This document shows positions 3,312-24,200 of a stretch of 33,112 nucleotides of DNA, in pieces; position 1 is the first letter of the stretch, and each line of letters begins with the position of its first letter. Both the position numbers and the translations under genes were made by a program. The DNA comes from a virus. Location: the IMG/VR virus record IMGVR_UViG_3300033388_002747, positions 1 through 33,112 of that record; one strand, 5' to 3'. Under the pieces are notes generated by a model. It ran no database searches and had not been told where the DNA came from. It saw only the letters and a program-made list of their open reading frames with translations.

Positions 3312-3515
3312 ATGAAACAGAAGTTTATCGTTTATTATAGTTATGTTAAATTGGGCAATACAACCGTGAAAGCTTTTTCTCCAGCTGAAGCAAAATATAT
3401 TGTCAAAAAGCGTTTAAAAGGAAGTAGATTGCTTGAGCCAAAGATCGATAAAGTGATGTCTGAGGCAGAGGAAACGGCTATTATGGAAAACAGGGATAAT
3501 CCGACAACATGGTAA
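3312..3515 (+). CDS. Hypothetical 67-residue protein
   Basis: An ATG ORF 8 nt after the previous stop, with AGGAAG upstream. The N-terminus (KFIVYYSYVKLGNTTVKAFS) looks like two beta strands, followed by a helix containing AEAKYIVKKRL. This beta-beta-alpha pattern is common in small phage proteins of unknown function. It overlaps the VRR-NUC gene by 7 nt. Confidence 0.65.
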   Translation: MKQKFIVYYSYVKLGNTTVKAFSPAEAKYIVKKRLKGSRLLEPKIDKVMSEAEETAIMENRDNPTTW

Positions 3516-3820
3516 TTGAGAAATCGGAAACTGAGATACAGCGAGAAATATTAGACTACTTAAAATTACGGAATATACCAGTCAATCGGAATAATGCAGG
3601 CAAAATAAAAATAGGCAGCAGATATATAAATCTCGGAAAGTCGGGATGGCCAGATATCATAGCAGTCCATAAAGGCTTTTTAGGAATTGAAGTGAAGAAG
3701 CCGGGGGAAGATTTAAGCGATAAACAAAAAGAAGTGAAACAAAATATTGAGCGGGCAGGCGGAATGGTGATAAAGATTTCGTCAATTGAAGAGCTGGCCA
3801 AGAGGCTCTTGACACTTTAA
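3509..3820 (+). CDS. VRR-NUC domain nuclease
   Basis: A 103-residue single-domain protein of the VRR-NUC (PF08774) branch of the PD-(D/E)xK nucleases. The expected active-site series is visible: E9 in the first helix (ETEIQREIL), D49 in SGWPDIIAV, E61-x-K63 in GIEVKKP, and Q73 in SDKQKEV. Small stand-alone VRR-NUC proteins in phages are thought to act on branched DNA (Holliday-junction or flap processing) during replication or before packaging. The length fits the phage type. It is the last gene before the promoter and the accessory cassette. Confidence 0.9.
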   Translation: MVIEKSETEIQREILDYLKLRNIPVNRNNAGKIKIGSRYINLGKSGWPDIIAVHKGFLGIEVKKPGEDLSDKQKEVKQNIERAGGMVIKISSIEELAKRLLTL

Positions 3821-3837
3821 TCATAATCGTATAATAT
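3809..3837 (+). promoter_or_regulatory. Sigma70-like promoter in front of the accessory cassette
   Basis: A consensus -35 box TTGACA (3809-3814) lies at the end of the VRR-NUC gene. A consensus TATAAT (3830-3835) follows at a short 15-nt spacing; an overlapping TAATAT (3832-3837) gives the ideal 17 nt. Either way transcription would start about 30 nt before the sialidase-like gene. This is the only short region before the cassette and the boxes match well by eye. Confidence 0.65.
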
Positions 3838-3871: not shown

Positions 3872-5011
3872 ATGGCGAAACAGCCAATCAAAGAAAAACT
3901 ACGGATTAATTTAAGAGAAAAGTATCGGCAATCCTTATTCCTGGATTGGTGGGACAAGGACCTTTCTGCGCAACAACGATTCTGTGATTCAAATTATAAT
4001 CTTATCATGTGCTTTGGTGGCGCTCCCGTAATAGAAAGCTATGATAAAGGCAAAACCTGGGACTATTATAAAGGCAATCGAAGATGGCCAATAAAAGAAT
4101 ATGAATATTTTCAATATGGCTTGGATTCAATTGCTATTCATAACGGTAAAGAGTTCAGACGTTCAGAAAATAACGGAATAACCTGGGGGCCAAGACAACA
4201 AATACCTTCAATAAGCGATGAGCATTATTCACAAATAGGTAGATGGAATTTTTGTACTACAACAGTAACAAGCAGAGGACGGATTCTTATAGCTGGCGAT
4301 TATTCTCTTGGCCGTCCTGATATAGACCCCGATGTATTGTGTGTTGTGAGCAGCGGTGATTGGGGTGAAAGCTGGCAATTCAGCCGGTTGTTCTGCCCTG
4401 CCGATCCATTACCGAAAGCACCGGAAGGATTTGGCGAGCCAGTTATTGTAGAAATGCCTAACAATACCCTGTGGATGGTATTCAGGTCTTGCTATGGGGA
4501 ACTGTGGCAGTGTATCTCTCAAGACGACGGATTAACTTGGGGAACACCGACACCAACTGGATTAGCTTCACCAATATCTAACTGTTATGCGAAACGGATC
4601 CCTGATTCCCGGGCAATAGTATTATGCTGGAACCTCGTTAAGCCAGGGACAGCTATGGACTTCAGGGGGCCTGGCAGTGTTTATGGGCCAAGAACAAACC
4701 TGGTGTTTGCGGTGAGTCAGGATAATTGTAGAACATGGACGTGTCCTGTGGTAGTTGAAGAGCAGGGTGGGGAATATCCAGCAATCCATTTCACTAAAGA
4801 AGATATGTTCATAATGTATCAATCTAGTCCAGATGAAGATTATCATTCATGGGCTGATCGTGGATTGACCTTGGTGCGATATGACCGGAAAGAAGTTGAA
4901 GCTTTACCGGCATGGACACTTGAAACCATTCAACCATATATCGACGAGGGGTTAGTTGCCAACTGGTTGGCATTGAATATTAGACGGGCAAATAGAGAAA
5001 TGTATGATTAA
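3872..5011 (+). CDS. BNR/Asp-box sialidase-like protein
   Basis: A 379-residue protein with five Asp-box-like motifs spaced as in a six-bladed propeller: SYDKGKTW (56-63), SENNGITW (98-105), SGDWGESW (161-168), SQDDGLTW (216-223) and a degenerate SQDNCRTW (282-289). The segment EPVIVEMPNNTLWMVFRS (189-206) also looks like bacterial BNR sialidase-family proteins (COG4409). Such proteins often cleave terminal sialic acids. However, no signal peptide is present and the FRIP motif that opens classical GH33 sialidases is missing, so catalysis is unproven. It may act in the cytosol, after lysis, or as a glycan-binding propeller. It is the first gene behind the promoter and leads a cassette with sialate-related genes. 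Confidence 0.75.
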   Translation: MAKQPIKEKLRINLREKYRQSLFLDWWDKDLSAQQRFCDSNYNLIMCFGGAPVIESYDKGKTWDYYKGNRRWPIKEYEYFQYGLDSIAIHNGKEFRRSENNGITWGPRQQIPSISDEHYSQIGRWNFCTTTVTSRGRILIAGDYSLGRPDIDPDVLCVVSSGDWGESWQFSRLFCPADPLPKAPEGFGEPVIVEMPNNTLWMVFRSCYGELWQCISQDDGLTWGTPTPTGLASPISNCYAKRIPDSRAIVLCWNLVKPGTAMDFRGPGSVYGPRTNLVFAVSQDNCRTWTCPVVVEEQGGEYPAIHFTKEDMFIMYQSSPDEDYHSWADRGLTLVRYDRKEVEALPAWTLETIQPYIDEGLVANWLALNIRRANREMYD

Positions 5012-5017
5012 GAATAA

Positions 5018-5032
5018 TTCGTCGTTGACGAA
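5018..5032 (+). other. Short perfect inverted repeat in intergenic gap
   Basis: TTCGTC, a 3-nt loop GTT, then GACGAA: a 6-bp perfect hairpin between the sialidase-like gene and the barrel gene. It is too short and lacks a T-run for a confident terminator. It could be an operator or a processing site. Confidence 0.3.
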
Positions 5033-5059
5033 ATAAAATAAATAACTGGGAGGTAAGTA

Positions 5060-5602
5060 ATGAAACAATTACTTGCGGTTTTAATGGTATTGGCTTTGAT
5101 AGCCGGTACATCGTTTGCGGTAGACATCGGGGGTAGTACTGCTGCATCAGGAATGAGGGGTGAGAAGTATCAAAAGATATGTATTGACCAAGAGGTTGAT
5201 ATTGACATCGATGCTTTTCATATCGATCTGGACGGTGGCTATGACATCGATCTGGAGCTTGATGAGAAGGTATGGGACTATGGCCTCGGTGCATCTTATA
5301 CTTTAGCGTACTTCACGTTCGGTTCGATTATAAGCGGCGAGAAGGACTTGGAACTGAATGAAAATAAAAGTTATGTTGATTTTGTTTATGAGACTATAGG
5401 ATTTAATGTAACCACTTTATTTTCATTTGATGAAGAGAAAGACAGTTTTCAGGGCGCCGAGTTTTCCGCTTTCGGTAGTTACGGGCCAGCCGAGATAACA
5501 TTGGGTTATTTATTCACCGACGATGGCGCAGAAGTATCGGGCGATGCTCCTGATGAACCGCTTAATGGCGGCTTCTATGCCAAAGCAAAGTTAAGCTATT
5601 AG
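5060..5602 (+). CDS. Small outer-membrane beta-barrel (porin-like) protein
   Basis: A 180-residue protein with a clear Sec signal peptide (MKQLLAVLMVLALIAGTSFA, cleavage after residue 20). The mature part of about 160 residues consists of alternating hydrophobic/polar strands with acidic turns (DIDIDAFHIDLDGGYDIDL) and ends in an aromatic residue (YAKAKLSY), the usual signal of outer-membrane barrels. The size suits an 8- to 10-stranded barrel. A GGGAGG precedes the ATG. Because it stands directly before a periplasmic sugar-binding protein, a role as a sugar or sialate channel (as NanC is in E. coli) is a reasonable inference; I do not recognise a specific family. It could instead be a surface-exclusion protein. 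Confidence 0.7.
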   Translation: MKQLLAVLMVLALIAGTSFAVDIGGSTAASGMRGEKYQKICIDQEVDIDIDAFHIDLDGGYDIDLELDEKVWDYGLGASYTLAYFTFGSIISGEKDLELNENKSYVDFVYETIGFNVTTLFSFDEEKDSFQGAEFSAFGSYGPAEITLGYLFTDDGAEVSGDAPDEPLNGGFYAKAKLSY

Positions 5603-5611
5603 GAGGATGAT

Positions 5612-6919
5612 ATGAAAAAACTATTTATTCTTTTAATAGTGCTGGTCTTAATGACCGGCATGGCGTTTGCGGCTGGTCAAGAAGAGACAGATAGCTATGA
5701 ATTGAGCTACGAAGTCTCTGGCGATGAGCATTTCTTTGAAGATATCGGCAGGCCCGATGGTTGGAAAGGCAAAGTTCGGGAATGGCAGATTGAATCATAT
5801 ATGCAAGCCAATCCTAACGTTAATATCACATTAATCATTAGAGATGTTTCTCAGGGAAGTATGACTCTTGACTCTCTCATGGCTGCTGGTAAACCACCGG
5901 ATTTGTGCATGGATGCATCTTGGCTGTTTGCTAAATACCTGGTTCCTGAATTTGCACTACCGCTTGAAAAATACATGGATTTGAGCAAATTCCAGGAAGA
6001 ACTGCTTGTCATGTATACCAGGGATAGCCATGTTTATGCGATTCCTCAAAACAATGTTACAATCGGGTTTGCAGTCAACTTAGACATGCTTGACAAGATT
6101 GGATATGCACTTCCCGCACAACCGGAATGGGTATGGGATGAGTTCGATCGACTATCTGAAAAGCTTAAGAGTAATGGGATTAATTCAACCGTTATAATGA
6201 CACAGGCAGGATTGTTCAGTTGGAACCAGATGTGGGCTCAAAGTGCTGGCGGTACGATGTTCGAGAATAACGATTATTCAAAGGTTACTATGAATACGCC
6301 GGAATACGCAGAAGGGCTTAGATATATGAAGAGCCTGGTGGATAGGGGCTATACTGATCCTCGTCCCAATGAGTGTAATGATGATACAGGGATTGAGACT
6401 TTTGCAGCTGGTAAAATATTTGGTTGTACTCTTCAGACAGGTCATGTTTCCGGGTGGGTTCCGCAGATGCTTAAATCAGGAGCGCTTGAGAAAGAATTTA
6501 AATATACATTCCTTGAGGTTCCACATTCACCAAAAGTTGAACATGCAGCTATAGATGGTTATCACTCTATTGTGATTGCGCATAATTCTGAGGATGAAGG
6601 CAGGAATAAAGTTGTTGCTAACTTTGTAAAGTTTATCTTCAGTGATAAGTGGTTGCAAATTGATTCATGTCAAGGGACTGTTCCTACAGTTAAAGGGTTC
6701 GTACCGAAGGCAGGTCTTGGGGCAACTCCACCTAATTTGGAGATGTTGAAACTTGCTCAAAGTGCGCCGCCTCTGGATACTGGCCGATTACTCCCGCAAC
6801 GCAGAGCTATTTATCGAGCTTGGACACCATTTGTTCAGGATTTCATGAATGGCAAGATAAGCGCAGAAGATCTATTGGATAAGCTGGAGAATGAAGCTAA
6901 CAAGCTATTGACTGAATAA
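5612..6919 (+). CDS. ABC transporter periplasmic sugar-binding protein (CUT1 type)
   Basis: A 435-residue protein. The signal peptide (MKKLFILLIVLVLMTGMAFA) is followed by AGQEE; no lipobox Cys is present, so it should be a free periplasmic protein. The body has the features of family-1 extracellular solute-binding proteins: AAGKPPDL near residues 90-97, an IPQNN segment followed by a hydrophobic strand, a W-rich hinge region (PEWVWDEFDRL), MNTPEYAEGLRYMKSLVD, and FAAGKIFGC. Full length for the family. It binds a sugar or oligosaccharide and delivers it to the two permeases encoded downstream. The substrate cannot be read from the sequence; sialic acid is inferred from the neighbours. An AGGAGG ribosome-binding site is present. 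Confidence 0.92.
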   Translation: MKKLFILLIVLVLMTGMAFAAGQEETDSYELSYEVSGDEHFFEDIGRPDGWKGKVREWQIESYMQANPNVNITLIIRDVSQGSMTLDSLMAAGKPPDLCMDASWLFAKYLVPEFALPLEKYMDLSKFQEELLVMYTRDSHVYAIPQNNVTIGFAVNLDMLDKIGYALPAQPEWVWDEFDRLSEKLKSNGINSTVIMTQAGLFSWNQMWAQSAGGTMFENNDYSKVTMNTPEYAEGLRYMKSLVDRGYTDPRPNECNDDTGIETFAAGKIFGCTLQTGHVSGWVPQMLKSGALEKEFKYTFLEVPHSPKVEHAAIDGYHSIVIAHNSEDEGRNKVVANFVKFIFSDKWLQIDSCQGTVPTVKGFVPKAGLGATPPNLEMLKLAQSAPPLDTGRLLPQRRAIYRAWTPFVQDFMNGKISAEDLLDKLENEANKLLTE

Positions 6920-6925
6920 AAAATA

Positions 6926-6949
6926 AAGGGCTGGGGAAACCTGGCCCTT
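6926..6949 (+). terminator. Terminator-like or attenuator hairpin after the binding-protein gene
   Basis: AAGGGC (6926-6931) pairs with GCCCTT (6944-6949), with a partly paired GG/CC inside and ATTAAA after it. The tail is not a clean T-run. A hairpin directly after the binding-protein gene is common in ABC operons, where it keeps binding-protein mRNA more abundant than permease mRNA. Confidence 0.5.
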
Positions 6950-6966
6950 ATTAAACGGGGGATATC

Positions 6967-7308
6967 ATGGAAGATTTAATCAAATGGGCGACTGAACAAT
7001 TAATTCAATTTAAAGAGATAACACCAGAGTTGATGATTAAGCTTATTGAGTATTATGCTTATCGGCTTACTGTTATGAAAGCATGGGGTATGGTTTTTAT
7101 TGTGGTCAGCGGGCTTTTTATAGGAGGTACTGCAATATGGCATCTTGCGGATGAATATTTAGATTGGGACGATGGCCCAGTATTCTTTTATTTTGTATTT
7201 GGCATTGGATTGCTTATTGGCATTGGATTGCTTATTGAGGTTCAGATACAACAAAAAGCCATTGAACTCGTACCTGAAATATATGTGCTGAAACAGTTAA
7301 TGCCATGA
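6967..7308 (+). CDS. Two-TM small membrane protein
   Basis: A 113-residue protein preceded by GGGG at good spacing. The N-terminal 38 residues are amphipathic; TM1 is about 41-60 (MVFIVVSGLFIGGTAIW) and TM2 about 73-91. The second TM contains a duplicated six-residue GIGLLI unit made by an 18-bp perfect tandem repeat. Its stop overlaps the permease ATG by 4 nt. A two-TM layout of this size fits a holin, but the position between binding protein and permeases fits a transport accessory. I cannot choose between the two. Confidence 0.65.
   Translation: MEDLIKWATEQLIQFKEITPELMIKLIEYYAYRLTVMKAWGMVFIVVSGLFIGGTAIWHLADEYLDWDDGPVFFYFVFGIGLLIGIGLLIEVQIQQKAIELVPEIYVLKQLMP
7201..7236 (+). repeat. 18-bp perfect tandem duplication
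   Basis: GGCATTGGATTGCTTATT occurs twice in direct succession (7201-7218 and 7219-7236). It keeps frame and lengthens the second transmembrane helix of the two-TM protein by six residues. Confidence 0.95.
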
Positions 7309-8159
7309 AACTTAAAGCCGCATTGCTGTTATTAGCACCTGCGATCATTATGTATCTATTCTCATTCGTATGGCCGATCTTAATGGTAGTGCAACTTTCT
7401 CTTTTAGATACAAACTATGTATCGTCAAGTTTTGTAGGGCTGAAGAATTTTGCAGAAGCTTTTCAGGACTCTTACTTTATCAAATCATTTTTTAATGCCT
7501 TTATATATGTGATCTTTATCGTACCGCTTACAATATTTATAGCGTGTACTATCTCTATATTTTTGATGGACTTCAGCAAACGGGTTCAGTCAATCAGCCG
7601 ATTTGTTATTTATCTGCCATCTCTCGCTTCCGGTTATATTATTAGCTTGTTGTGGAAATGGTTTTTATTGAGAGAGGGGTTGGTTAATTACGTGCTGTCA
7701 TGGGTAGGGATAGAACCTATCTCATGGCTATTTGTTCCATGGGCTGCCAGGGGAGCGCTGTCAGGGATTGAGGTTATCTCAAGTATCGGATTCATGGTGA
7801 TACTAATGTCTGCCTCATTACAAACAGTACCACAGGACTTGCATGATGCAGCAGTGATAGATGGCGCTACGGAAAGACAGTTTAAAAGATATATTGTTTT
7901 ACCATGGTTAGTGCCTACGCTTCTGTTAGCTTCTATGCTGATGGTTATTGGAGTGATGAAGATATGGAGTACAATCTATATTCTCACACCAGAAGGCGGG
8001 CCTGGTGGCGCAACAGTTTCACCCGTATACGAGGTTTTCCTAACAGCGTTCCACATGGGACGGCATGGATACGGTGCAGCAAAAGGTATACTTTTGCTGG
8101 TTGTTATAGCTGCTATCATTGCGGTTAAACAGCGATTAGAGAAGAAGGCAAGGGAATGA
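7305..8159 (+). CDS. ABC sugar permease, MalF/UgpA-like subunit
   Basis: A 284-residue integral membrane protein with about six hydrophobic segments. It opens in the usual way for CUT1 inner-membrane permeases (L-L-L-A-P-A at 8-13; SFVWPI at 20-25; FVGLKNFAEAF at 43-53). The EAA loop that docks the ATPase is visible as D181-AAVIDG-187 with the closing I197-VLP-200. It pairs with the next gene to form the channel for the substrate captured by the upstream binding protein. It overlaps that gene by 4 nt, which suits equal synthesis of the two subunits. No ATPase gene lies in the window. Confidence 0.93.
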   Translation: MKLKAALLLLAPAIIMYLFSFVWPILMVVQLSLLDTNYVSSSFVGLKNFAEAFQDSYFIKSFFNAFIYVIFIVPLTIFIACTISIFLMDFSKRVQSISRFVIYLPSLASGYIISLLWKWFLLREGLVNYVLSWVGIEPISWLFVPWAARGALSGIEVISSIGFMVILMSASLQTVPQDLHDAAVIDGATERQFKRYIVLPWLVPTLLLASMLMVIGVMKIWSTIYILTPEGGPGGATVSPVYEVFLTAFHMGRHGYGAAKGILLLVVIAAIIAVKQRLEKKARE

Positions 8160-8962
8160 AGATAGCAAGATTCATTCTACTATTCATCATATTCGCTATT
8201 CTTCTCATGCCTATCTTCCTAATGGTATCGAATAGTTTTACGCCGGTAAAGGCATTTCTTTCAAGACCGCCAAGATTCTTACCGAAGAATTTAACACTAA
8301 AGAATTATAAACAAGCACTTTCTATGAGATATGTGCCGCGGTGGATTCTCAATACATTCATGATTGTAGGAATAATAGTTACTTGCGGTGTGTTGGTGAA
8401 TGGCATGGCTGGTTATGTATTTGCATATGGCCGATTCCGCTGGATAAAAACAGTATTTACTTTAATGATATTACCGCTATTCTGTACATCTTATGTGATG
8501 ATAATTCCTCGATTCGTTATTGTGAATAAACTAAAATTGTCTGGAACTATGGCAGTGATACTTACAGGTATTTATTGGCCTATGGGTATCTTTATATTTC
8601 GTAACTATTTTAGAACAGTACCAAGAAGTTTTATTGAAAGCGCAAGACTTGACGGCGCTAACGAATGGCAGATTTTTGCAAAGATAGTATTGCCGATTTG
8701 TAAACCGATTGTAGGAACCGCTATTGTATTCCTGGGCATGGGGATTTTAGGGGATTGGGTGTGGCAATTATTATGCCTTACAGCTAAACATACACAAACA
8801 TTTCTTGTCGGTATGATGCAAAGTACACTGGAAGAGTTTATTGTGAAGAATATTGGATATAACTTAGCGGTCGGTACTCTATTGTTTATTCCATATATAG
8901 TGATATTCTCATTTTCAAGTCGGTATTATATAAAAGGATTAACAGGAGGAGCTTTAAAATGA
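8156..8962 (+). CDS. ABC sugar permease, MalG/UgpE-like subunit
   Basis: A 268-residue membrane protein with six predicted TM segments. Features of the MalG-type partner are visible: PPRFLPKNLTLKNYKQAL (38-55), LNTFMIV, AGYVFAYGRF (85-94), and the EAA loop E161-SARLDG-167 with I177-VLP-180. The full length of the family and an intact EAA loop suggest a working subunit. It needs an ATP-hydrolysing partner such as a host MsmX/UgpC-like protein, because none is encoded here. The stop overlaps the next ATG. Confidence 0.93.
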   Translation: MKIARFILLFIIFAILLMPIFLMVSNSFTPVKAFLSRPPRFLPKNLTLKNYKQALSMRYVPRWILNTFMIVGIIVTCGVLVNGMAGYVFAYGRFRWIKTVFTLMILPLFCTSYVMIIPRFVIVNKLKLSGTMAVILTGIYWPMGIFIFRNYFRTVPRSFIESARLDGANEWQIFAKIVLPICKPIVGTAIVFLGMGILGDWVWQLLCLTAKHTQTFLVGMMQSTLEEFIVKNIGYNLAVGTLLFIPYIVIFSFSSRYYIKGLTGGALK

Positions 8963-9150
8963 AAGAGAATGAATATCAGTTATTAATTGATAAGCTGTGG
9001 ATTGATCAGTTGTGTTGTGGAATTAGTGCGTTCAAGATCACAGATAAGGGAATATGTAGGATTCCCCCGGATCAGCTAGGCTGTCCTGCAGACAGTCAGT
9101 TATATGAAGATATTATCGAAACAAAAATTGAGAAGAAGGAAAAACCATGA
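8959..9150 (+). CDS. Hypothetical 63-residue protein
   Basis: An ATG ORF with an excellent AGGAGG site, overlapping both neighbours by 4 nt. The product contains four cysteines (LCCG near residue 18, GIC and GCP later) and an acidic C-terminus. It could hold a metal or a disulphide, but no family is recognised. Its place between permeases and the CMP-sialate synthetase implies co-expression with them. Confidence 0.65.
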   Translation: MKENEYQLLIDKLWIDQLCCGISAFKITDKGICRIPPDQLGCPADSQLYEDIIETKIEKKEKP

Positions 9151-9923
9151 AAACAATAGCGGTTATTTTAGCCAGAGGCGGATCGAAACGCTTACCTCGT
9201 AAAAACACAAAGTTTTTTTGTGGTAGACCACTTGTTGCTTGGACTATTATTCAATCAAGAGCTTGTGAGCTCATAGATGAAACTTACGTTACAACGGATG
9301 ACGAACAGATAGCGGAGATCTCTGAACAATATGGTGCAAAAGTATTAATGAGAGAAGATTCCAGGGAATCTGCCGATCAGACGGTTGGTTCTGCGCCGCT
9401 TTCATTCGCAATAGAAAGAATCATGAAGGAAAGGGAATTCGATTCTGTATTATCTATATTACCAACAAGTCCACTCGTAAGAGTTAATGATTATAAAAGA
9501 TTAATTCAAAAGTTTGAGATAATGAAAGGGTACAAACTCGTTAATGAACGACGATTTTTTGCAACTGATTCACTATCCATGTATGCGCCCATGAAAGATG
9601 TTTTTATTTTTAAACGTATTGATCATGAGAGATGTGTTGCAACCATTATGGATAAGACTTTCTCATATTTGGCTAAGTGTGGCGGAACTGCTATTTCAAG
9701 TAAAGACAGCCTTCTTAAGCGTAAAATAGATTGGGATAATGAGAAAACATGGCGTGATCCAGTTATATTTAAATTAAGTAAAGAATCATATTATTACATT
9801 CTTGGCAAATGGTGGCAGACCTTTGAGATAGACTTCCAGTCTGACTTTGATATATGTGAGTATTTTTTTGATAAGTATTTGCTGGCCGATTGGGAGAATA
9901 TATATAAGGGGTTGAAGCGGTGA
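9147..9923 (+). CDS. neuA: CMP-N-acylneuraminate cytidylyltransferase-like (NeuA family)
   Basis: A 258-residue protein of the acylneuraminate cytidylyltransferase family, which activates sialic or related nonulosonic acids with CTP to give the CMP-sugar. The nucleotide-binding signature is clear: IAVILARGGSKRLPRKN (4-20), with R10 and K19 expected to hold the CTP phosphates. GRPLVAWTI (26-34), TTDDEQIAE (49-57) and LPTSPLVR (105-112) follow in family order. A C-terminal metal-binding-like segment EIDFQSDFD lies at 227-235. Length is usual. The CMP-Kdo branch (KdsB) is less likely from the motif spacing. It supplies donor sugar for the two DUF115 proteins downstream, by inference. Confidence 0.88.
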   Translation: MKTIAVILARGGSKRLPRKNTKFFCGRPLVAWTIIQSRACELIDETYVTTDDEQIAEISEQYGAKVLMREDSRESADQTVGSAPLSFAIERIMKEREFDSVLSILPTSPLVRVNDYKRLIQKFEIMKGYKLVNERRFFATDSLSMYAPMKDVFIFKRIDHERCVATIMDKTFSYLAKCGGTAISSKDSLLKRKIDWDNEKTWRDPVIFKLSKESYYYILGKWWQTFEIDFQSDFDICEYFFDKYLLADWENIYKGLKR

Positions 9924-11089
9924 ATGAAGAAAGCATAATTGCTGCTAAAAAAGATACTTTCAGAAAACAGTGGATGAATGCCAATGTTCCAATGGAAGCT
10001 AGGAACGCATTTGAGAATTACTGCTATCTCAAGGATCATAAAGAGCTGTGCATTCCTTTATACAAAGACACACTCAAAATACCAAAGCCTGCCATAGTTC
10101 TGGGTTCCGGCTCTTCACTTGGAACGGTGGTTGACATTCTCAAAGATTGGCAAGGTGCTATATTCTGTTCTTCTTCACAGGTAAAGTTATTGATGAAGCA
10201 TGATTGTATTCCAGATTATATTGCTGGTATCGATCCAAGGTATGACGCTAAAGAATGGGATTTTGATAAAAATAAATTATTTGAAAAAGCAGTTTATATT
10301 AATGCACCGACAACACCGCATGAAATTACAAGATTGTACAAAGGTGAACAACGCTGGTTCTTTGTCTGGGATTCAACACAGACATGGTACAAGCAAGTCT
10401 TTTTCGGTGTATTCCCCTGGATAGAAGATTATATTTTACCTTTCACTTCAAGTGCTGCCGGTCTTTTAGCGATTGCTCATTCACTCAACTATGCGCCTCT
10501 CTATCTTATCGGTATGGATTTTGCTGGAGACAGAATAAAAGATGGGCGAGCGAGTTATGGGAAAGGAACGTTAAAACGAACATATCATGGATTTGAGACT
10601 GATGATAACCATTTATGGAGTTGGCGAGGATTGGTTTGCACGATACGAGTTAGCATAGCACAACGGTATGGTAATTCATGGCATATTTTCAATTGTTCAA
10701 AGAAGTCAACACTTATTGATGATCTACCCTATAAAGATTTGCGCAAGATGATTCTACGCGGAAAGACAAAGGCAATAACGCGCTGGACAAAAAATAAAAT
10801 GATTCGACGACTAGATAAAACTTTGGCACGGTTCAATACTTATATTTTTGAAATACATAATGGTGAATTATATGGATCACGTATTCATATCTGCGAAACA
10901 CCACAAGACTTGTTAGGAATATTCGAGCGCGTCAATACGGTTTTGCAAAGAAGGATAGAAGAGCATTACAAAACACCAATAGAAGGGCGGCGAAAAGGTT
11001 TCGATCCTTCTAAAATAACATTAATCGATATACCAAAAAGAATGGAATATTACAGAAAATTACACGAGGAAAATAATGAAAAAAACTAA
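9920..11089 (+). CDS. DUF115/Maf-type (MptE-like) putative glycosyltransferase 1
   Basis: A 389-residue protein starting at GTG 9920, overlapping the upstream stop. It carries the DUF115 (PF01973, MAF_flag10 / MptE-like) core: VLGSGSSL (60-67), IFCSSSQVKLL (81-91), PDY at 98-100 with D105 (GIDP), and LIGMDFAG (196-203). In flagellated bacteria this family includes the motility accessory factors that attach nonulosonic acids to flagellin using CMP-activated donors. The archaeal MptE relatives are pterin pyrophosphokinases instead. Next to a NeuA-like enzyme the glycosyltransferase reading is favoured. The C-terminal third is basic and unlike known domains. Confidence 0.82.
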   Translation: MNEESIIAAKKDTFRKQWMNANVPMEARNAFENYCYLKDHKELCIPLYKDTLKIPKPAIVLGSGSSLGTVVDILKDWQGAIFCSSSQVKLLMKHDCIPDYIAGIDPRYDAKEWDFDKNKLFEKAVYINAPTTPHEITRLYKGEQRWFFVWDSTQTWYKQVFFGVFPWIEDYILPFTSSAAGLLAIAHSLNYAPLYLIGMDFAGDRIKDGRASYGKGTLKRTYHGFETDDNHLWSWRGLVCTIRVSIAQRYGNSWHIFNCSKKSTLIDDLPYKDLRKMILRGKTKAITRWTKNKMIRRLDKTLARFNTYIFEIHNGELYGSRIHICETPQDLLGIFERVNTVLQRRIEEHYKTPIEGRRKGFDPSKITLIDIPKRMEYYRKLHEENNEKN

Positions 11090-12392
11090 GATAGTTATTG
11101 ATTCATGGGTCAATAGGGGCTTTATTAAAGAAATTCAGAATGCTTTCAAGAACTATGCGTTGATAGAAAAACTACGCAGAGAGAAAAAGATAATTCCTAT
11201 GCAGGATGTTCATCATACAAAAAAAGGAAGAGCCGTTGTCTTGGGCTCCGGTTCTTCTTTGGATGATATGATACCACTGCTTAAAAAATGGAAAGGCGCT
11301 ATTTTCTGTGCTTCTTCACAAATCGATACGCTTATCTATCATGGGATTGATCCAGACTATATGGTCCATATCGAGCCATTTACAGACATTGAGATGAGAG
11401 CAACGCCGGAACTTTCTGTGCCTAAAGACAAACGATGGGGGAAAACAGTTCTGGTCGGCCATCCGAGCATGGCGCATGATTATTTAAAGCAATGGAGTTC
11501 TGAAGCGAAGAATCCCTCTATAATATTCAGATTGTTTGTTGTTTCGCTTGATTGGTATACTAGGATTTTATATTATGCCTATCCCTGGATAGAGAGTATT
11601 GTGATTCCATTTATGACTGTTGTCCCTGCTGCTATATCTGTAGCATGTACTATGGGTTATGACCCTATATATTTGGCCGGCGTAGATCAGGGCGGTGTTA
11701 GATTTGTAAAGTATTATTACAAGAATGGCAAATGGCATAAAGATAAATCTACAGGGTTACGCAAGGAGGACCAAATAAAAACAAAAGCCGGTGTGATTAT
11801 TCCATGTAGTCTTTTACACATGAAGAAAGGACCGATACTGGAAATATTTGGCGATTTATACCAGGGACGAGTAAAAAGCATATTCAATCTTGCGCCGTCA
11901 ACAAAAAGCTGTGTAACAGAAATCCCTTACTGTAATCCTGATCGGCCCATGAATAATGATGATCCGATGTACACAGATAAAATAAAAGATGAAGTATTAA
12001 GGAACACAGAACTTTATCTTGCTTTTGCTGATGTTTATCTTATTCCAGGAAATAACGGATTGGGGAAAGGTTATACAAACGTTAGAGCCGCAACCATGAA
12101 AGAACTTGCAACAAAAGTAGATGCCAAGAATAAAGAAATATTTCAAAGTAAAATGTATTACGAAAAGATTATAAAAGATAATAAAATGTCTCTGAAAGAA
12201 ATGGCGGATACAGGGAGAATACCAGATGATGGGCAGGCGGAGGCTGCACGGAATATGGATGTAAATGCAATTACATTTGTCGATAAAGAAAAGTATATGA
12301 AAGAAGCAAGGCGAATCAAAAAGCTGGCAGACGAGAAATATAAGGAATTGATTCCTATTAGGAATTCTAGATGGGACGAGTTTCTGTTATAA
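11076..12392 (+). CDS. DUF115/Maf-type (MptE-like) putative glycosyltransferase 2
   Basis: A 438-residue paralogue of the previous gene. The same core is present: VLGSGSSL (55-62), IFCASSQIDTL (76-86), PDY (93-95) and YLAGVDQGG (199-207). The position equal to D105 of the first copy is E100 (HIEP), so the two probably differ in substrate or activity. Both share a PWIE-x4-PF element before the second core segment. GAGGAAAATA precedes the start, which lies 14 nt inside the first copy. Its 3' end overlaps the terminase small-subunit gene by 22 nt, tying the cassette to the phage packaging operon. It may glycosylate a second acceptor or act with copy 1. Confidence 0.8.
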   Translation: MKKTKIVIDSWVNRGFIKEIQNAFKNYALIEKLRREKKIIPMQDVHHTKKGRAVVLGSGSSLDDMIPLLKKWKGAIFCASSQIDTLIYHGIDPDYMVHIEPFTDIEMRATPELSVPKDKRWGKTVLVGHPSMAHDYLKQWSSEAKNPSIIFRLFVVSLDWYTRILYYAYPWIESIVIPFMTVVPAAISVACTMGYDPIYLAGVDQGGVRFVKYYYKNGKWHKDKSTGLRKEDQIKTKAGVIIPCSLLHMKKGPILEIFGDLYQGRVKSIFNLAPSTKSCVTEIPYCNPDRPMNNDDPMYTDKIKDEVLRNTELYLAFADVYLIPGNNGLGKGYTNVRAATMKELATKVDAKNKEIFQSKMYYEKIIKDNKMSLKEMADTGRIPDDGQAEAARNMDVNAITFVDKEKYMKEARRIKKLADEKYKELIPIRNSRWDEFLL

Positions 12393-13042
12393 AATCACAT
12401 AAAAACAAAAAAGCAATCGAAACTGCTGTATTGCGTGGTGTTTCATTACGTAGTATTGCGGAAAAGTACGGATTTAGTGAAGCCGCATTACGTCGATATC
12501 GTGATAAATATATGCCCAAACAATTAATAAAGGCGCAAGAGAAGGATCTTGAATTAAGCGCTGACAATCTGCAAGAAACAGTTCGGGCCCTATTCAAGAA
12601 AGCACAGAATTATCTATCTGCTGCGGAAGCTGATCTGATTGATCCTGAAACTGGAAAAGTAACTTGGTTGCCTCATGCAAGTGAAGTGGAAGTATTATAT
12701 TATAAACAGGTAGGCGATAAACAAGCAAGGAAGAAAGAGAATCTACAGATATTGATTAATCGAGTAATGGAACAAGATGGTAGCAAGCTCGAATCATTTA
12801 TGTACAAACATGCTGATGCACGCAGGGAGGCGGCACGATACCTCGACGTAAGCTTGAAGACTGTTGAAACTCTTGCTAAACTAATGGGAGAGATGGATAC
12901 CGGTGATACAACGGTAACTATCAATAATACGATTGTGGATATTACGGAAATTATCCTTAAAGCAACAAAAGGCTATCCGAAGATAAGGAAAAAAATTGTT
13001 GAACGGATCAAACGTCTTGAAGGGTCTGGCACTATCGATTGA
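12371..13042 (+). CDS. terS: Terminase small subunit (HTH)
   Basis: A 223-residue protein with an N-terminal helix-turn-helix (residues about 15-45; RGVSLRSIAEKYGFSEAALR), a central coiled or helical region and a basic C-terminus. This is the usual build of phage terminase small subunits, which recognise the packaging site and regulate the large subunit. It immediately precedes and overlaps the large-subunit ATPase, which supports the call. AGGA lies about 8 nt before the ATG. It starts inside the end of the second DUF115 gene. Confidence 0.8.
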   Translation: MGRVSVIKSHKNKKAIETAVLRGVSLRSIAEKYGFSEAALRRYRDKYMPKQLIKAQEKDLELSADNLQETVRALFKKAQNYLSAAEADLIDPETGKVTWLPHASEVEVLYYKQVGDKQARKKENLQILINRVMEQDGSKLESFMYKHADARREAARYLDVSLKTVETLAKLMGEMDTGDTTVTINNTIVDITEIILKATKGYPKIRKKIVERIKRLEGSGTID

Positions 13043-13892
13043 AGAAAGGATATATGCTGAAGACCCTGCTTATTGGATGGAATGTATTATCGGAGTAAAG
13101 CCGGATCCGTGGCAAAAGAAAGTTCTTGAATCGAATGAGTTAGAAATACTTTTAAATAATTGTCGCCAATCGGGTAAAACAGAAACAGCCGCAGTAAAGG
13201 CGGGACATACTGCACGATACAAAGAAGGAACATTAGCTATTGTTGTTTCGGCAACACAACGGCAAGCAGGGATATTGCAGCGCCGTGTAACACGGTTTTT
13301 GGGTATGGCAAATGATGATTGGCAGAAATTATCTTCACATTGGGTGAATGAATATAATGAATATGAAGATAAATTTAAAATTGTTCAACGTAGTGTTCTA
13401 TCTCTTGAATTGGCAAACAGTAGCCGTGTTGTTTCTGTGCCGGCTTCCCCGGATACTGTAAGAGGATATTCACCTGATTTGATTATTATTGACGAAGCAG
13501 CTTTTGTTGGTGACGCCGTTTATTCTGCAATACGACCTATGCGGGCGGCCAAACCTGTGCAACTTGTTGTTATGAGTACACCGAAAGGAAAGATGGGATT
13601 CTTTTATGAAGAATGGATTTCGGATGATCCTGTATGGCTGAGAATCAAAGTTTCTGCTGATGATTGTCCACGGATTAATAAAGACTTTTTGAAACGAGAG
13701 AAAGAGAAGCTTGGAAAAGACTTTTTCGAGAGAGAATATTATAATAGATTCTTAGAGATGGAAGGTGCTATATTTAATCAAGAGCTGATTGATTCTCTTT
13801 TTATGTTACGGGAACCAGAAGAAGAAATAGCAAGGATACATAAGGCTGATAAAATAATGATCGATCCAGGCGGATTGGAAGGATGGAGATAA
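12996..13892 (+). CDS. terL: Terminase large subunit, ATPase part (split gene)
   Basis: A 298-residue ORF equal to the N-terminal motor half of a phage terminase. The Walker A variant is CRQSGKT (56-62), Walker B is LIIIDE (162-167), and the coupling motif is MSTP (193-196). The frame ends at TAA 13890-13892, just after the linker, and the nuclease half begins with the very next codon in the same frame. The start is uncertain: TTG 12996, 12999 or 13017 all lie inside the small-subunit gene. The product drives DNA translocation into the prohead. It must work with the separately encoded nuclease or depend on stop-codon readthrough. Confidence 0.88.
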   Translation: MLNGSNVLKGLALSIEERIYAEDPAYWMECIIGVKPDPWQKKVLESNELEILLNNCRQSGKTETAAVKAGHTARYKEGTLAIVVSATQRQAGILQRRVTRFLGMANDDWQKLSSHWVNEYNEYEDKFKIVQRSVLSLELANSSRVVSVPASPDTVRGYSPDLIIIDEAAFVGDAVYSAIRPMRAAKPVQLVVMSTPKGKMGFFYEEWISDDPVWLRIKVSADDCPRINKDFLKREKEKLGKDFFEREYYNRFLEMEGAIFNQELIDSLFMLREPEEEIARIHKADKIMIDPGGLEGWR

Positions 13893-14615
13893 ATGGATTT
13901 AACACCAAGAAAAGAAGGGTTGAAGACGCAAGATGGATTGACACCGAGAATTGACCAATATTTCATAGGACTTGACATAGGTAGAGTACGGGATTATTCA
14001 GCTCTTGCCATGATAGCAAGATTTTATTCTATGCCACCAGACAGGGATCTGAATAACATGCAACAAATGTATATGGTAACTGATTTAGTTCGCTTTCCGA
14101 TAGAAACACCCTATGCAGAAGTAGAGGAAGCGGTTTCAATAATGTGGAATAGACCCAGGGTATCTGCAAAAAGAAGAATTGCAGTAATAGATCAAACCGG
14201 TGTAGGCGATCCTGTTGTGCAGAATATCCGTAGGATTCATAAAGTAAAAACTATTGGGATAAATATAACAGGCGGGAATACAGTAACTCAGAGCGATGAA
14301 CGGACATATAATGTACCGAAGGCAACGCTGGTGACTAACTTAATTTCCGTAGCACAAAGACAAAGATTGAAGATTCACCCAGATGTAAAAGGTGCAAAAT
14401 TGTTTAAAGAAGAGTTGGCGAAATTTGGGTATCATATCGATCGGAATACTGGGAATATTCAGTATGAAGCACTCGAAGCAGCAACTCATGACGATTTGAT
14501 TATTGCTGTGAGTTTGCCGCTCTGGTTTGCAGAAGCGGTCGCTCGGGGTTCTTTGACTGGCAGAGTTCGGCAGCCCGAGATTCAGGAGGCACATGACCCT
14601 TGGGAAAAAACTTAA
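13893..14615 (+). CDS. terL: Terminase large subunit, nuclease part (split gene)
   Basis: A 240-residue ORF holding the RNase-H-like nuclease domain that cuts the phage concatemer. The three acidic residues of the active site are in place: D28 in FIGLDIG (24-30), D100 in IAVIDQTGVGD (96-106), and D200/D201 in THDDLIIAV (198-206). Its ATG follows the ATPase stop with no gap and in the same frame. GGAG at 13885-13888 sits 4 nt upstream, enough to start translation. So it looks like a functional separate subunit rather than a decayed fragment. Confidence 0.88.
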   Translation: MDLTPRKEGLKTQDGLTPRIDQYFIGLDIGRVRDYSALAMIARFYSMPPDRDLNNMQQMYMVTDLVRFPIETPYAEVEEAVSIMWNRPRVSAKRRIAVIDQTGVGDPVVQNIRRIHKVKTIGINITGGNTVTQSDERTYNVPKATLVTNLISVAQRQRLKIHPDVKGAKLFKEELAKFGYHIDRNTGNIQYEALEAATHDDLIIAVSLPLWFAEAVARGSLTGRVRQPEIQEAHDPWEKT

Positions 14616-14666: not shown

Positions 14667-14695
14667 TTGACAACCTCTTTATTTTAGTGTAACAT
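14667..14695 (+). promoter_or_regulatory. Sigma70-like promoter for the structural operon
   Basis: A perfect TTGACA (14667-14672), a 17-nt spacer, and TAACAT (14690-14695, 4 of 6 matches to TATAAT). It lies in one of the few intergenic gaps, about 30 nt before the first gene of the capsid block. A second TTGACA at 14625 has no -10 partner. Confidence 0.65.
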
Positions 14696-20381: not shown

Positions 20382-21203
20382 ATGTCAGTTACTACAGAGG
20401 AACAAATCTGTAATATAGCCTTGTTCCATCTCGGTGAGGCTGAAATCTCTAACATATCCGGCACTGATACTACCTCAACTATTCTTGAAGAAGTATATGA
20501 CCAGAACCGAGACTTTGTCATGGAAGAATTTCCATGGCCCAGCGTTACCAAACGAACTTCATTGGCTCTGGCAGCAGAAATATCTATAACAGACATCAGT
20601 TCAGCGAAACCTGGGGTTGTAACCTGTTCAGCTCATACCTTTATAAATAATGACCTGGTAATATTCTCTGGTTGTGCTGCTGCCGGATTGACAGATATGG
20701 ATGGAAATGTATTCAGAGTATCAGGCAAAACAGACGATACTTTTGAACTGGAAGAATCGGATGGTGATGATGTAGACACAACCGGATATGGGACATATAC
20801 ATCCGGCGGATCGGTGCGGCGGTATGCTACGAGTGAGTGGGATTATGTTTATGATCTTCCTGATGATTGTCTTAAACCACTTAAAATATTGGATGAGTTA
20901 TGGGAAGAAGACACCGAATATGAATGGAAACGTGAAGGCAGTCTTATCTACTGTAACATTGAAGATGCGGCTTTAAAGTATACAAAAAAAGAAACTGATC
21001 CAGCCAACTACAGTTCTGCTTTAACTGAAGCTATCGCTTATCGATTAGGTTGGTTGGTATCAATACCTATTACCGGCAGCAAAGAGCTTAAAAATAATCT
21101 TTGGACTATGTACGACAGATTCATGAGAAAGACAAGAGGTTCAAGCGCCGAAGGTGGCGCATCACAAGATCAAGGGGAGGCTTTGTGGATCAATGCGAGG
21201 TAA
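20382..21203 (+). CDS. Tail adaptor (T7 gp11-like tail tubular protein A) with inserted FCCH-like domain
   Basis: A 273-residue protein. The N-terminal EEQICNIALFHLGEAEISNI and the region DQNRDFVMEEFPWPSV are typical of podovirus tail tubular protein A (adaptor). The C-terminal helix (YSSALTEAIAYRLGWLVS) also fits. Between them, about residues 77-148, is a beta domain with VVTCSAHTFINNDLVIFSG, then FRVSGKTDDTFEL and YTSGGSV. It resembles the E1-FCCH-type insertion found in several phage tail proteins. It connects portal and nozzle and is followed, with overlap, by the nozzle gene. Confidence 0.88.
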   Translation: MSVTTEEQICNIALFHLGEAEISNISGTDTTSTILEEVYDQNRDFVMEEFPWPSVTKRTSLALAAEISITDISSAKPGVVTCSAHTFINNDLVIFSGCAAAGLTDMDGNVFRVSGKTDDTFELEESDGDDVDTTGYGTYTSGGSVRRYATSEWDYVYDLPDDCLKPLKILDELWEEDTEYEWKREGSLIYCNIEDAALKYTKKETDPANYSSALTEAIAYRLGWLVSIPITGSKELKNNLWTMYDRFMRKTRGSSAEGGASQDQGEALWINAR

Positions 21204-24200
21204 ACCGCTTATCAAAAACTTTCTGGCTGGGGAGATTGCACCACAGTTAGATGGTTTAGTTGACGCACCCATCCAAGGGTGTAGAACATTAGAGAACTTC
21301 ATCGTCCGCAAACAAGGTGGATTACAACGCCGGCCAGGCACTTTCTGGGCGGGTGAGGTAAAAGATTCTTCTGTTTATACTCGCATTATTCCTTTCGAGA
21401 GCACTACAGGTGTTCACTATATTATAGAACTTGGTAACATATACGCTCGCTTCTGGAAACAATCTACTCATGCGGTTATGGGCGGAATGGGAAGCGAGAC
21501 GGAAGTTGTAACGCCGTATTTGACTGCTGAGCTGAGAGATATAAAATATGTTGTTATAAAAGACTCGATATATTTCACTCACCAAAACCATCCTGTACAA
21601 AGATTAACTTGGACTTCAGATACTTCCTGGGCATGGGGTCGGGCACCTCTTCGCGTCAATAGCAAAACAATTGTTGTAGGCGATGATCAATTCTCATGGG
21701 TCACGGATAAAGAAGATTTATCTGAGGAATGGGAACGGCTTGATAATAACAATTTTGATTTGACTAATACAGGAGATTTACGGGGGATTTGTTGGGGTAA
21801 TGGTGTCTGGATTATGGTAGGGCCGGTCGGCCGGGTATCCATGAGTTATGATGGGGAACTTTGGATTCCGATAGATACAGGGGAAACGACAGACTTCTTC
21901 AGTGTAAGGTTTCACGGCAGTCTATTTATTGCGACTACTACCAATTCCGTTTGGATTTCAATAGACGGTATTGCCTGGGAAGAACAAACGCTGGGATCCG
22001 CAAGTGATTATTATACGTCTGCTTATAAACCCTCGATCAATCGGTATATTATAGCGGGAAAAGACGCTCTTGAAATGTATTCGGACGATGGAGTTACTTG
22101 GGTAAGTGGGGGAGATACTCAATTCAGTGCTTCAGAACATATATATGGTTCTTGTTATGGAAATGAAACATTTGTTGTAGTAGGAAGTGCAGGTAAGATA
22201 TCTACCGGTATTACTGGTGTAAATTGGATTGCAAGAACCAGCGGCATTACAAGTGATATACAAGCGGTAAGATGGATTGAGGAACTTTCTCTGTTTGTAG
22301 CTCTCGGCAAAGGGAAAGGCATTCTCACTTCGCCTGATGCGGTTACTTGGACAATAAGGAATAATGTAGTTTTGTCAGGTGCCCAGCAATGGCATTCAAT
22401 TTGTTGGTCGCCTGAACTAAGTTTATTCTGCGCAGTAGCGACTGACGGAGTGGTTGGCGTACAAGTGATGACTAGTCCTGATGGAAAAGCCTGGACTAGT
22501 AGAACATCTGCTTCAGCCCAGCAATGGCATTCAATCTGTTGGTCGCCTGAACTAAGTTTATTCTGCGCAGTAGCTATTGACGGTGCTGTTGGCGCACAAG
22601 TGATGACGTCTCCTGATGGTATTGCCTGGACTAGTAGAACATCTGCTAGCGCCCAAAATTGGCAATCTATTTGTTGGAGTCCTGAGTTAAGTTTATTCTG
22701 TGCAGTAGCTTATGACGGTGCTGTTGGCGCACAAGTGATGACGTCTCCTGATGGTATTGCCTGGACTAGTAGAACATCTGCTTCAGCCCAGAACTGGTAT
22801 TCTATTTGTTGGAGTCCTGAGTTAAGTTTATTCTGTGCAGTAGCGACTGACGGAGTGGTTGGCGTACAAGTGATGACTAGTCCTGATGGAAAAGCCTGGA
22901 CTAGTAGAACATCTGCTTCAGCTCAGAACTGGACTTCTATTTGTTGGTCGCCTGAACTAAGTTTATTCTGCGCAGTAGCTATTGACGGCGTTGCCGGCGC
23001 ACAAGTGATGACGTCTCCTGATGGTATTGCCTGGACTAGCCGAACATCTGCTTCAGCTCAGCAATGGTGGGCTATTTGTTGGAGTCCTGAGTTAATGCTA
23101 TTCTGTGCAGTAGCTTATGACGGTGCTGTTGGCGCACAGGTTATGACTTCCCCTGATGGTATTGCCTGGACTTTAACGAGTTCAATAGAGACTAATCAAT
23201 GGCGTTCTATTTGTTGGAGTCCCGAATTAATCTTATTCTGCGCTGTAGCTACTAACGGTGCCGATCGAGCAATGTTTTCCAGTGATGGTGTTTTGTGGCG
23301 TACTCTCGATGTAATTTATGATATTGTTTGGGATGGGAATAGTGCTGTTATCTGTGGTTCAAATGGATTAATCATGGCTTCTCGGGATTTAATTACTTGG
23401 GATTCTCATACTATTGTTGAAGATTTTATTCCTACATTTAGAGCCATCGCTGTTGATTATCTTTCAGATTACTGGCGAGAACAATTCCAAGACACAGAGC
23501 ATTACCCCCATGCTTGTGCTTTCCATGAAGGGCGCCTACTTATCGGTGGGTCTGCGAATGATCCTAACACAATATGGGGAAGCAAAACCAATCGTTTTAT
23601 GGCTTTCTTTATGGGGACTTTTGATGATGATGGATGGGATATTGTTCTTGGTGGTCGTAAACAATCACGTGTTCTCTGGATGGAAGGTGCAAGCAAACTT
23701 GTTGTAGGTACTGATTCAAGAGAAGGTGTAATTGAAGGCGGGCCTTCTGGTATCACTGCTTCAGTACGTGGTGTTAAATGGCAGTCTACCTATGGCAGCG
23801 ATGATACTCTTCAGGGAATGTTAGTTAATGATGTTGTTATATTTGCGCAACGTAACGCTACAATAGTCCGGGCGCTCCAATATAAACAAGAACAGCAAAC
23901 ACCGGTCGATCTCACCTATTATGCAGATCATATAACAACGGGCGGTATTAAAGAATGGGACTTCCAGAACTCACCGGAAAGTATCCTATGGGCTATCCGG
24001 AACGATGGCACTTTACTTTCTATGAGTTTTGAACCGGCACTTAAAATCCTGGCATGGGCAAGACATACCTCTGGCGTGGCTGATTTTGAGAGTGTGGCCG
24101 TTGCTGGCGGTAGCACTGAAGATGAAATCTGGTTTGTGATAAAACGTTCTGTTGACGGGAATACTGTACGTTATCTTGAATATATGGATGTGCGGGACTT

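Follow-up and report, generated by a model that had tools for sequence, protein, structure and literature searches.

A phage gene cassette next to the terminase genes with a predicted role in sugar import, CMP activation, and transfer to protein

We analyzed IMG/VR virus record IMGVR_UViG_3300033388_002747, a linear contig of 33,112 bases from a podovirus-type phage (hereafter the window, meaning this whole stretch), in which all main genes, including those of the cassette and its flanks, are on the plus strand. On balance, we read the core genes of the block at 3872 to 12392 as a phage module for the import, activation, and transfer of a sugar, with a nonulosonic acid or something closely related as the likeliest candidate. 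A solute-binding protein (SBP) and two permeases, established as members of their families, would take up the sugar with energy from an MsmK/UgpC-type ATPase encoded by the host rather than the phage. A phage-specific NeuA/PseF-type enzyme would then join the sugar, judging by its family most likely a nonulosonic acid or near relative, to cytidine monophosphate (CMP), and DUF115/Maf-like proteins, judging by their fold, would pass the sugar from CMP to protein. Gene overlaps suggest that the module is expressed alongside the packaging genes, with its product required late.

The core of this cassette recurs in other phages. An alignment of both DUF115 proteins, scanned against IMG/VR, retrieved loci L243 (11.5 kb) and L244 (15.7 kb examined of an 18.7-kb record), each of which encodes the SBP, permease 1 (perm1), permease 2 (perm2), the cytidylyltransferase, and DUF115 in the order and on the strand observed in the window, directly before the terminase. 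L244 also shares the VRR-NUC nuclease, upstream of the cassette, and another early window gene. The terminase, portal, and capsid of L243 and L244 are of HK97 type, unlike the PF12236 portal and GP7 capsid of the window. Since the set is shared with two other phages whose particles are unrelated to that of the window, the core is a real, selected viral module. The cytidylyltransferase is its best-conserved gene, with 46 to 49% identity over the whole length between the window and L243 or L244; the corresponding values are 37% for perm1, 29 to 32% for perm2, and 24 to 25% for the SBP (E value of about 1e-33). Between L243 and L244, all five genes had a nonsynonymous divergence (dN) of 0.16 to 0.21 and a synonymous divergence (dS) of 1.5 to 2.7, the latter near saturation (dN/dS of about 0.1). 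With dN far below dS, these genes are held by purifying selection. An initial annotation of the window had described an unbroken route from sugar release through import and activation to transfer; the import, activation, and transfer genes of that route thus form a conserved module, and its release step is the part that found no support.

Single-protein scans of IMG/VR with the SBP, the BNR protein, the first DUF115 protein (DUF115a), and the cytidylyltransferase found no relative, and the SBP likewise found none in genome contigs. Because these scans missed L243 and L244, which the two-sequence DUF115 alignment alone found, the count of cassettes is a lower bound. Sequence searches of 80 loci related to the window by portal or terminase revealed no cassette gene; PF01973 was absent from 42 of these related records, and PF00528 was absent from the 8 tested. 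Locus L197, which has the same small terminase gene (TerS) and split large terminase gene (TerL) as the window, is without the cassette, and the gene immediately upstream of its TerS is of replication type. Conservation of the block among related phages, the check that the initial annotation had proposed, was therefore found in a different lineage and not among the portal and terminase relatives of the window. As relatives of the window packaging module are without the block, it is cargo for the window lineage.

All genes named in the initial annotation proved to be real and in place, and all passed profile tests except a barrel-like gene; two open reading frames, at 6967 to 7308 (113 amino acids) and 8959 to 9150 (63 amino acids), were missing from its list. 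The SBP (5612 to 6919; Pfam SBP_bac_1, 1e-16) has a spirochaete-style signal peptide (AFAAGQEE). Together with two BPD_transp_1 permeases, perm1 of MalF/UgpA type (7305 to 8159; Pfam, 2e-10) and perm2 of MalG type (8156 to 8962; Pfam, 5.4e-14), in which the EAA loops HDAAVIDGA and IESARLDGA are present, it makes up the parts expected of a CUT1 importer. No ABC ATPase was recognized in the window by Pfam or motif searches, and there was no motif match in L243 or L244. A MalK/UgpC-type ATPase occurs in 38 of 60 spirochaete genomes, often as a single copy, and the lacking ATPase could be supplied by the host.

The cytidylyltransferase (9147 to 9923; Pfam CTP_transf_3, 9e-21) retains the cytidine triphosphate motif ARGGSKRLP (ARGGSK-x-x-P type) at residue 9 and the acidic EID metal motif at residue 227. 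A profile of the three phage cytidylyltransferases matched only CMP-N-acetylneuraminic acid synthetases below 1e-10, supporting CMP-nonulosonic acid synthetases as the nearest enzymes and the NeuA-like assignment of the initial annotation. We also considered the EIDFQ motif as a lost metal ligand and dropped this candidate, as other members of the aligned family likewise have EID.

The same annotation had assigned two proteins to the DUF115/Maf type, and both profile and fold comparisons uphold the resemblance. DUF115a (9920 to 11089; 389 amino acids) and DUF115b (11076 to 12392; 438 amino acids) are tandem paralogues with 28% identity and match Pfam MptE-like/DUF115 at 3.7e-18 and 4.7e-19, respectively. 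A profile built from eight phage DUF115 proteins gave Maf 5MU5 as its best PDB match (4.7e-11), with sialyltransferases next, weakly; Foldseek searches with a model of DUF115b likewise returned 5MU5 (6.6e-6) and human sialyltransferase ST8SiaIII (3e-3). The phage proteins thus have the PF01973 domain with a Maf fold and do not have the three-domain architecture of Maf; the alignment spans the central domain of 5MU5. Phage DUF115 proteins already exist in BFVD as annotations without an assigned role. On L245, a phage contig that also encodes DnaB and a DNA methylase, the block at L245:9830-14141 contains DUF115 and, after it, PseB (1.7e-85), PseC (1.3e-54), a NeuB/PseI-like gene (1.2e-6), and a gene resembling acetyltransferases. 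We interpret this block as a phage-borne pathway of the pseudaminic-acid type, and it ties phage DUF115 to pseudaminic acid independently of the cassette. At L246:9908-11005 and L248:9821-10888, the DUF115 gene is flanked by the genes for the major tail protein and the tape measure, a position that suggests glycosylation of virion proteins. A CMP-nonulosonate transferase acting in a late operon is the reading that best fits the DUF115 proteins.

Several observations weigh against a module for a nonulosonic acid or its relative. The ligands of solved SBP relatives are maltose, chitin, or other neutral oligosaccharides, and no close SBP relative has a known ligand. The genes adjoining related transporters encode GH32 (sucrose/fructan), alpha-glucosidase/galactosidase, and probable GH31 enzymes. 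This evidence on the sugar is distant (21 to 27% identity). The cytidylyltransferase has a divergent sugar-binding half, the R-[RS]-Q-D substrate motif present in most aligned cellular enzymes is missing from it, and its PseF score of 99 bits is below the curated cut-off of 205.7, for which reasons we named it NeuA/PseF-like, not PseF. The model of DUF115b is moderate, with a mean predicted local distance difference test score (pLDDT) of 58 and an N-terminal core mostly at 74 to 91, and its match to Maf is nearly equaled by one to archaeal 6-hydroxymethylpterin diphosphokinase (HPPK; 8SD5, 9.4e-6). Finally, only three cassettes are known, all on metagenomic contigs. The SBP relatives, both solved and genomic, together with the missing substrate motif, did not support sialic acid, the substrate initially proposed; an acidic sugar may still be the ligand, and none of the evidence indicates sialic acid.

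Two alternatives draw on these observations. The neutral sugars indicated by the SBP relatives and their neighboring genes would suit two independent cargos: a general importer that supplies sugar to the infected cell, and a glycosylation pair working with CMP-sugar precursors made by the host. L245 offers a parallel in that biosynthesis genes accompany its DUF115 gene and the stretch examined contains no transporter. Against this arrangement stands the linkage of the transporter and the PseF-like/DUF115 pair, with gene order unchanged, in three phages that belong to two unrelated lineages, and we consider it rather unlikely. The match to archaeal HPPK and the unusual substrate site of the cytidylyltransferase would instead suit modification of a nucleotide, pterin, or DNA, and not a protein glycan, by the cytidylyltransferase and DUF115 proteins. 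In contrast, the profile search yielded Maf and sialyltransferases and no HPPK, and L245 couples DUF115 with Pse genes, leaving this alternative highly improbable.

The BNR_2 beta-propeller protein (3872 to 5011; Pfam, 3.1e-18), to which the initial annotation had given the release of sialic acid, is sialidase-like and accessory, being absent from L243 and L244. Its family profile matches GH33 sialidases at 1.9e-23, and it has five Asp boxes and residues E189, R205, R274, and Y302 at the Glu, Arg2, Arg3, and Tyr catalytic positions of GH33. The Pfam match begins at profile position 85, leaving a short unaligned N-terminal segment, and the unmatched first 84 profile positions include those of the GH33 Arg1 and acid/base Asp. 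BNR has no hydrophobic segment and thus no signal peptide of the kind expected of a secreted sialidase. An AlphaFold model predicted from the BNR sequence alone had a mean pLDDT of 30, too low for use. Taken together, its sequence features do not support a role in sialic acid release. The nearest relatives of this protein that we found are encoded by two tandem BNR_2 genes on a spirochaete contig (L139:1873-4411).

These results bear on the initial proposal that sialic or other nonulosonic acids, released by the sialidase, are placed on the host surface or flagella and block superinfection or immunity. All of the families that it named are present, BNR retains the GH33 positions listed above, and there is precedent for phages altering the nonulosonic acids of their hosts (epaA-epaB prophages; PMC12053666). 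Against it, BNR has no signal peptide, goes unmatched in the N-terminal catalytic region, and has no counterpart in L243 or L244, and the cassette is packed among late genes; we regard this proposal as improbable. Spirochaete flagella are periplasmic and so would be poor phage receptors, which further counts against it if the host is a spirochaete, as we argue below.

Gene arrangement places the cassette within the phage genome. From left to right, the window contains small early genes, VRR-NUC, BNR_2, the barrel-like gene, the SBP, a 113-amino-acid membrane-type gene (TM113), perm1, perm2, a 63-codon gene (orf63), the cytidylyltransferase, DUF115a, and DUF115b; these are followed by TerS, a split TerL, a PF12236 portal, a GP7-type capsid, and tail genes. 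The location between a phage nuclease and the terminase given in the initial annotation is therefore correct. On the left flank, VRR-NUC (3509 to 3820; Pfam, 1.8e-5) is 43% identical to L244:142-498. On the right flank, the TerS candidate (12371 to 13042) has a helix-turn-helix motif, a weak terminase match, and a homologue that precedes TerL in L197 (3.3e-18). The ATPase half of TerL (12996 to 13892; phrog_7579, 3.5e-43) and its nuclease half (13893 to 14615; phrog_27743 and phrog_2) are separate, adjacent genes, and TerL is split likewise in L197 (window 12996-14615; L197:5207-6797).

Four-base stop-start overlaps join TM113 to perm1, perm1 to perm2, perm2 to orf63, orf63 to the cytidylyltransferase, and the cytidylyltransferase to DUF115a; longer overlaps join DUF115a to DUF115b (14 bases), DUF115b to TerS (22 bases), and TerS to TerL (47 bases). 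Because consecutive genes overlap all the way between TM113 and TerL, expression with the late genes is favored and a chimeric contig is disfavored. In favor of a chimera between a host operon and phage DNA, there was no second assembly of this phage, and L032 (86% portal identity) is too short to span the block. The overlaps across the TerS junction, a codon usage that matches between the cassette and late genes (pooled correlation of 0.949), and the occurrence of the cassette ahead of the L243 and L244 terminase genes make a chimera scarcely credible, and the arrangement indicates that the cassette is part of one continuous gene array. From the overlaps, we infer that the cassette is coexpressed with the packaging genes, so that its product would be needed late. 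Two promoter-like TTGACA-17-TAnnAT sites lie in, or at, short gaps between genes, one preceding BNR (3809 to 3837) and the other following TerL (14667 to 14695), and the total count of such sites in the window is not above chance.

This late gene packing suits virion glycosylation at least as well as a block to superinfection. As the acceptor, we consider a late phage protein of the tail or head slightly more likely than host flagellin or a surface glycan, and we hold a virion protein as a modest preference and not as a finding.

A spirochaete is the likely host, as judged from the perm1 clade, SBP signal peptides, matches to the barrel-like protein, and PF12236 prophages. In the perm1 tree, the window, L243, and L244 form one clade (support of 99/91) that is sister to a spirochaete permease (96/82). 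The SBP cleavage regions of the three phages (AFAAGQEE, AFAGGQEE, and SFAAGQQE) resemble those of spirochaete homologues (VFAAGTKEE, MTAAGQEE, and LFASGQQ), and the signals of homologues outside the spirochaetes are of lipoprotein or other types. Distant matches to the barrel-like protein occurred in 3 of 198 spirochaete genomes (best, 1.1e-8; another, 1.4e-6) and in 0 of 110 genomes of another phylum, and PF12236-type prophages were present in 3 of 296 spirochaete genomes. The perm2 tree left the position of the window protein unresolved, a point against the overall reading. Joining host, timing, and acceptor, we tentatively propose, as a doubtful extension of the module reading, that spirochaete phages import an ulosonic-type sugar late through their own ABC importer and glycosylate their own virion proteins by means of a CMP-synthetase and a compact Maf-like transferase.

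Other features of the window and its relatives include the small outer-membrane-barrel-like protein at 5060 to 5602, which has an N-terminal hydrophobic segment at residues 1 to 26 (a probable signal peptide), a C-terminal aromatic residue, and no Pfam match; the end of a homologue precedes the SBP at the left end of L243 (8e-8). TM113 (6967 to 7308) has two hydrophobic segments by hydropathy and no Pfam match, was seen only in the window and not in L243 or L244, and contains a perfect 18-base tandem duplication at 7199 to 7234. The gene at the orf63 position (8959 to 9150, with an ATGA overlap at each end) is different in each of the three phages. With regard to a cassette for lysogenic conversion, no integrase was recognized in the window, which is a partial contig, and the gene overlaps suggest late expression. 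PADLOC found no defense family. A tail protein at 21154 to 24717 has seven copies of a 135-base (45-amino-acid) repeat at 22381 to 23271 and is propeller-like, possibly a diversified adhesin. A 1,815-amino-acid protein of internal virion type (27413 to 32860) has a subthreshold RelA_SpoT match at residues 484 to 580. The portal gene of L244 (L244:8654-11239) holds an intein-like splicing domain.

Phage genes that alter host glycans are already known, as are single transport proteins in phages. A collection of 50,697 phage records contained no credible homologue of the SBP, synthetase, DUF115, or BNR; matches there to Listeria (SBP) and to an Acinetobacter kdsB-like gene look like host DNA or distant families. 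PHROG families gave no match to DUF115a or the synthetase and a match only at chance level to DUF115b, and in the open literature no account of an ABC sugar importer in a phage turned up. Within the reach of these searches, in the phage records and the open literature, the joining of a sugar importer, CMP activation, and protein transfer in a phage is new. If our reading is correct, a phage would be importing its own building block, and the cassette would provide small, tractable Maf-like enzymes, a new subfamily of CMP-sugar synthetases, and a handle on spirochaete phages, a little-studied group.

Several known systems resemble parts of this cassette. Like other CUT1 importers that share a host MsmK/UgpC ATPase, the cassette importer has an SBP, two permeases with EAA loops, and no ATPase of its own, but it is phage encoded and translationally coupled to packaging genes. 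BNR shares the propeller and Asp boxes of the GH33 and GH181 families, with E189, R205, and R274 aligning with E218, R234, and R305 of AmGH181 (PMC10067855); it has the Tyr of GH33 instead of the GH181 His-Gln pair and differs from both families in lacking a signal peptide and an identified N-terminal catalytic region. The Maf flagellin glycosyltransferases (PF01973; 5MU5; CbMaf, PMC11339370) share the DUF115 catalytic domain and fold, and a CMP-nonulosonic acid donor is expected for them; Maf proteins are ~630 amino acids long, whereas the phage proteins of 389 and 438 amino acids match the central domain only. The epaA-epaB prophages of Acinetobacter baumannii, in which a phage changes a nonulosonic acid (PMC12053666), likewise carry genes that act on such a sugar and alter a glycan, but they have two epimerization genes only, without an importer, CMP-synthetase, or transferase, and their target is the host capsule. 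In L245, too, a phage DUF115 gene from this family has genes for a nonulosonic acid as neighbors, with the difference that there the sugar would be made by PseB, PseC, and a PseI-like enzyme, whereas the cassette would import it.

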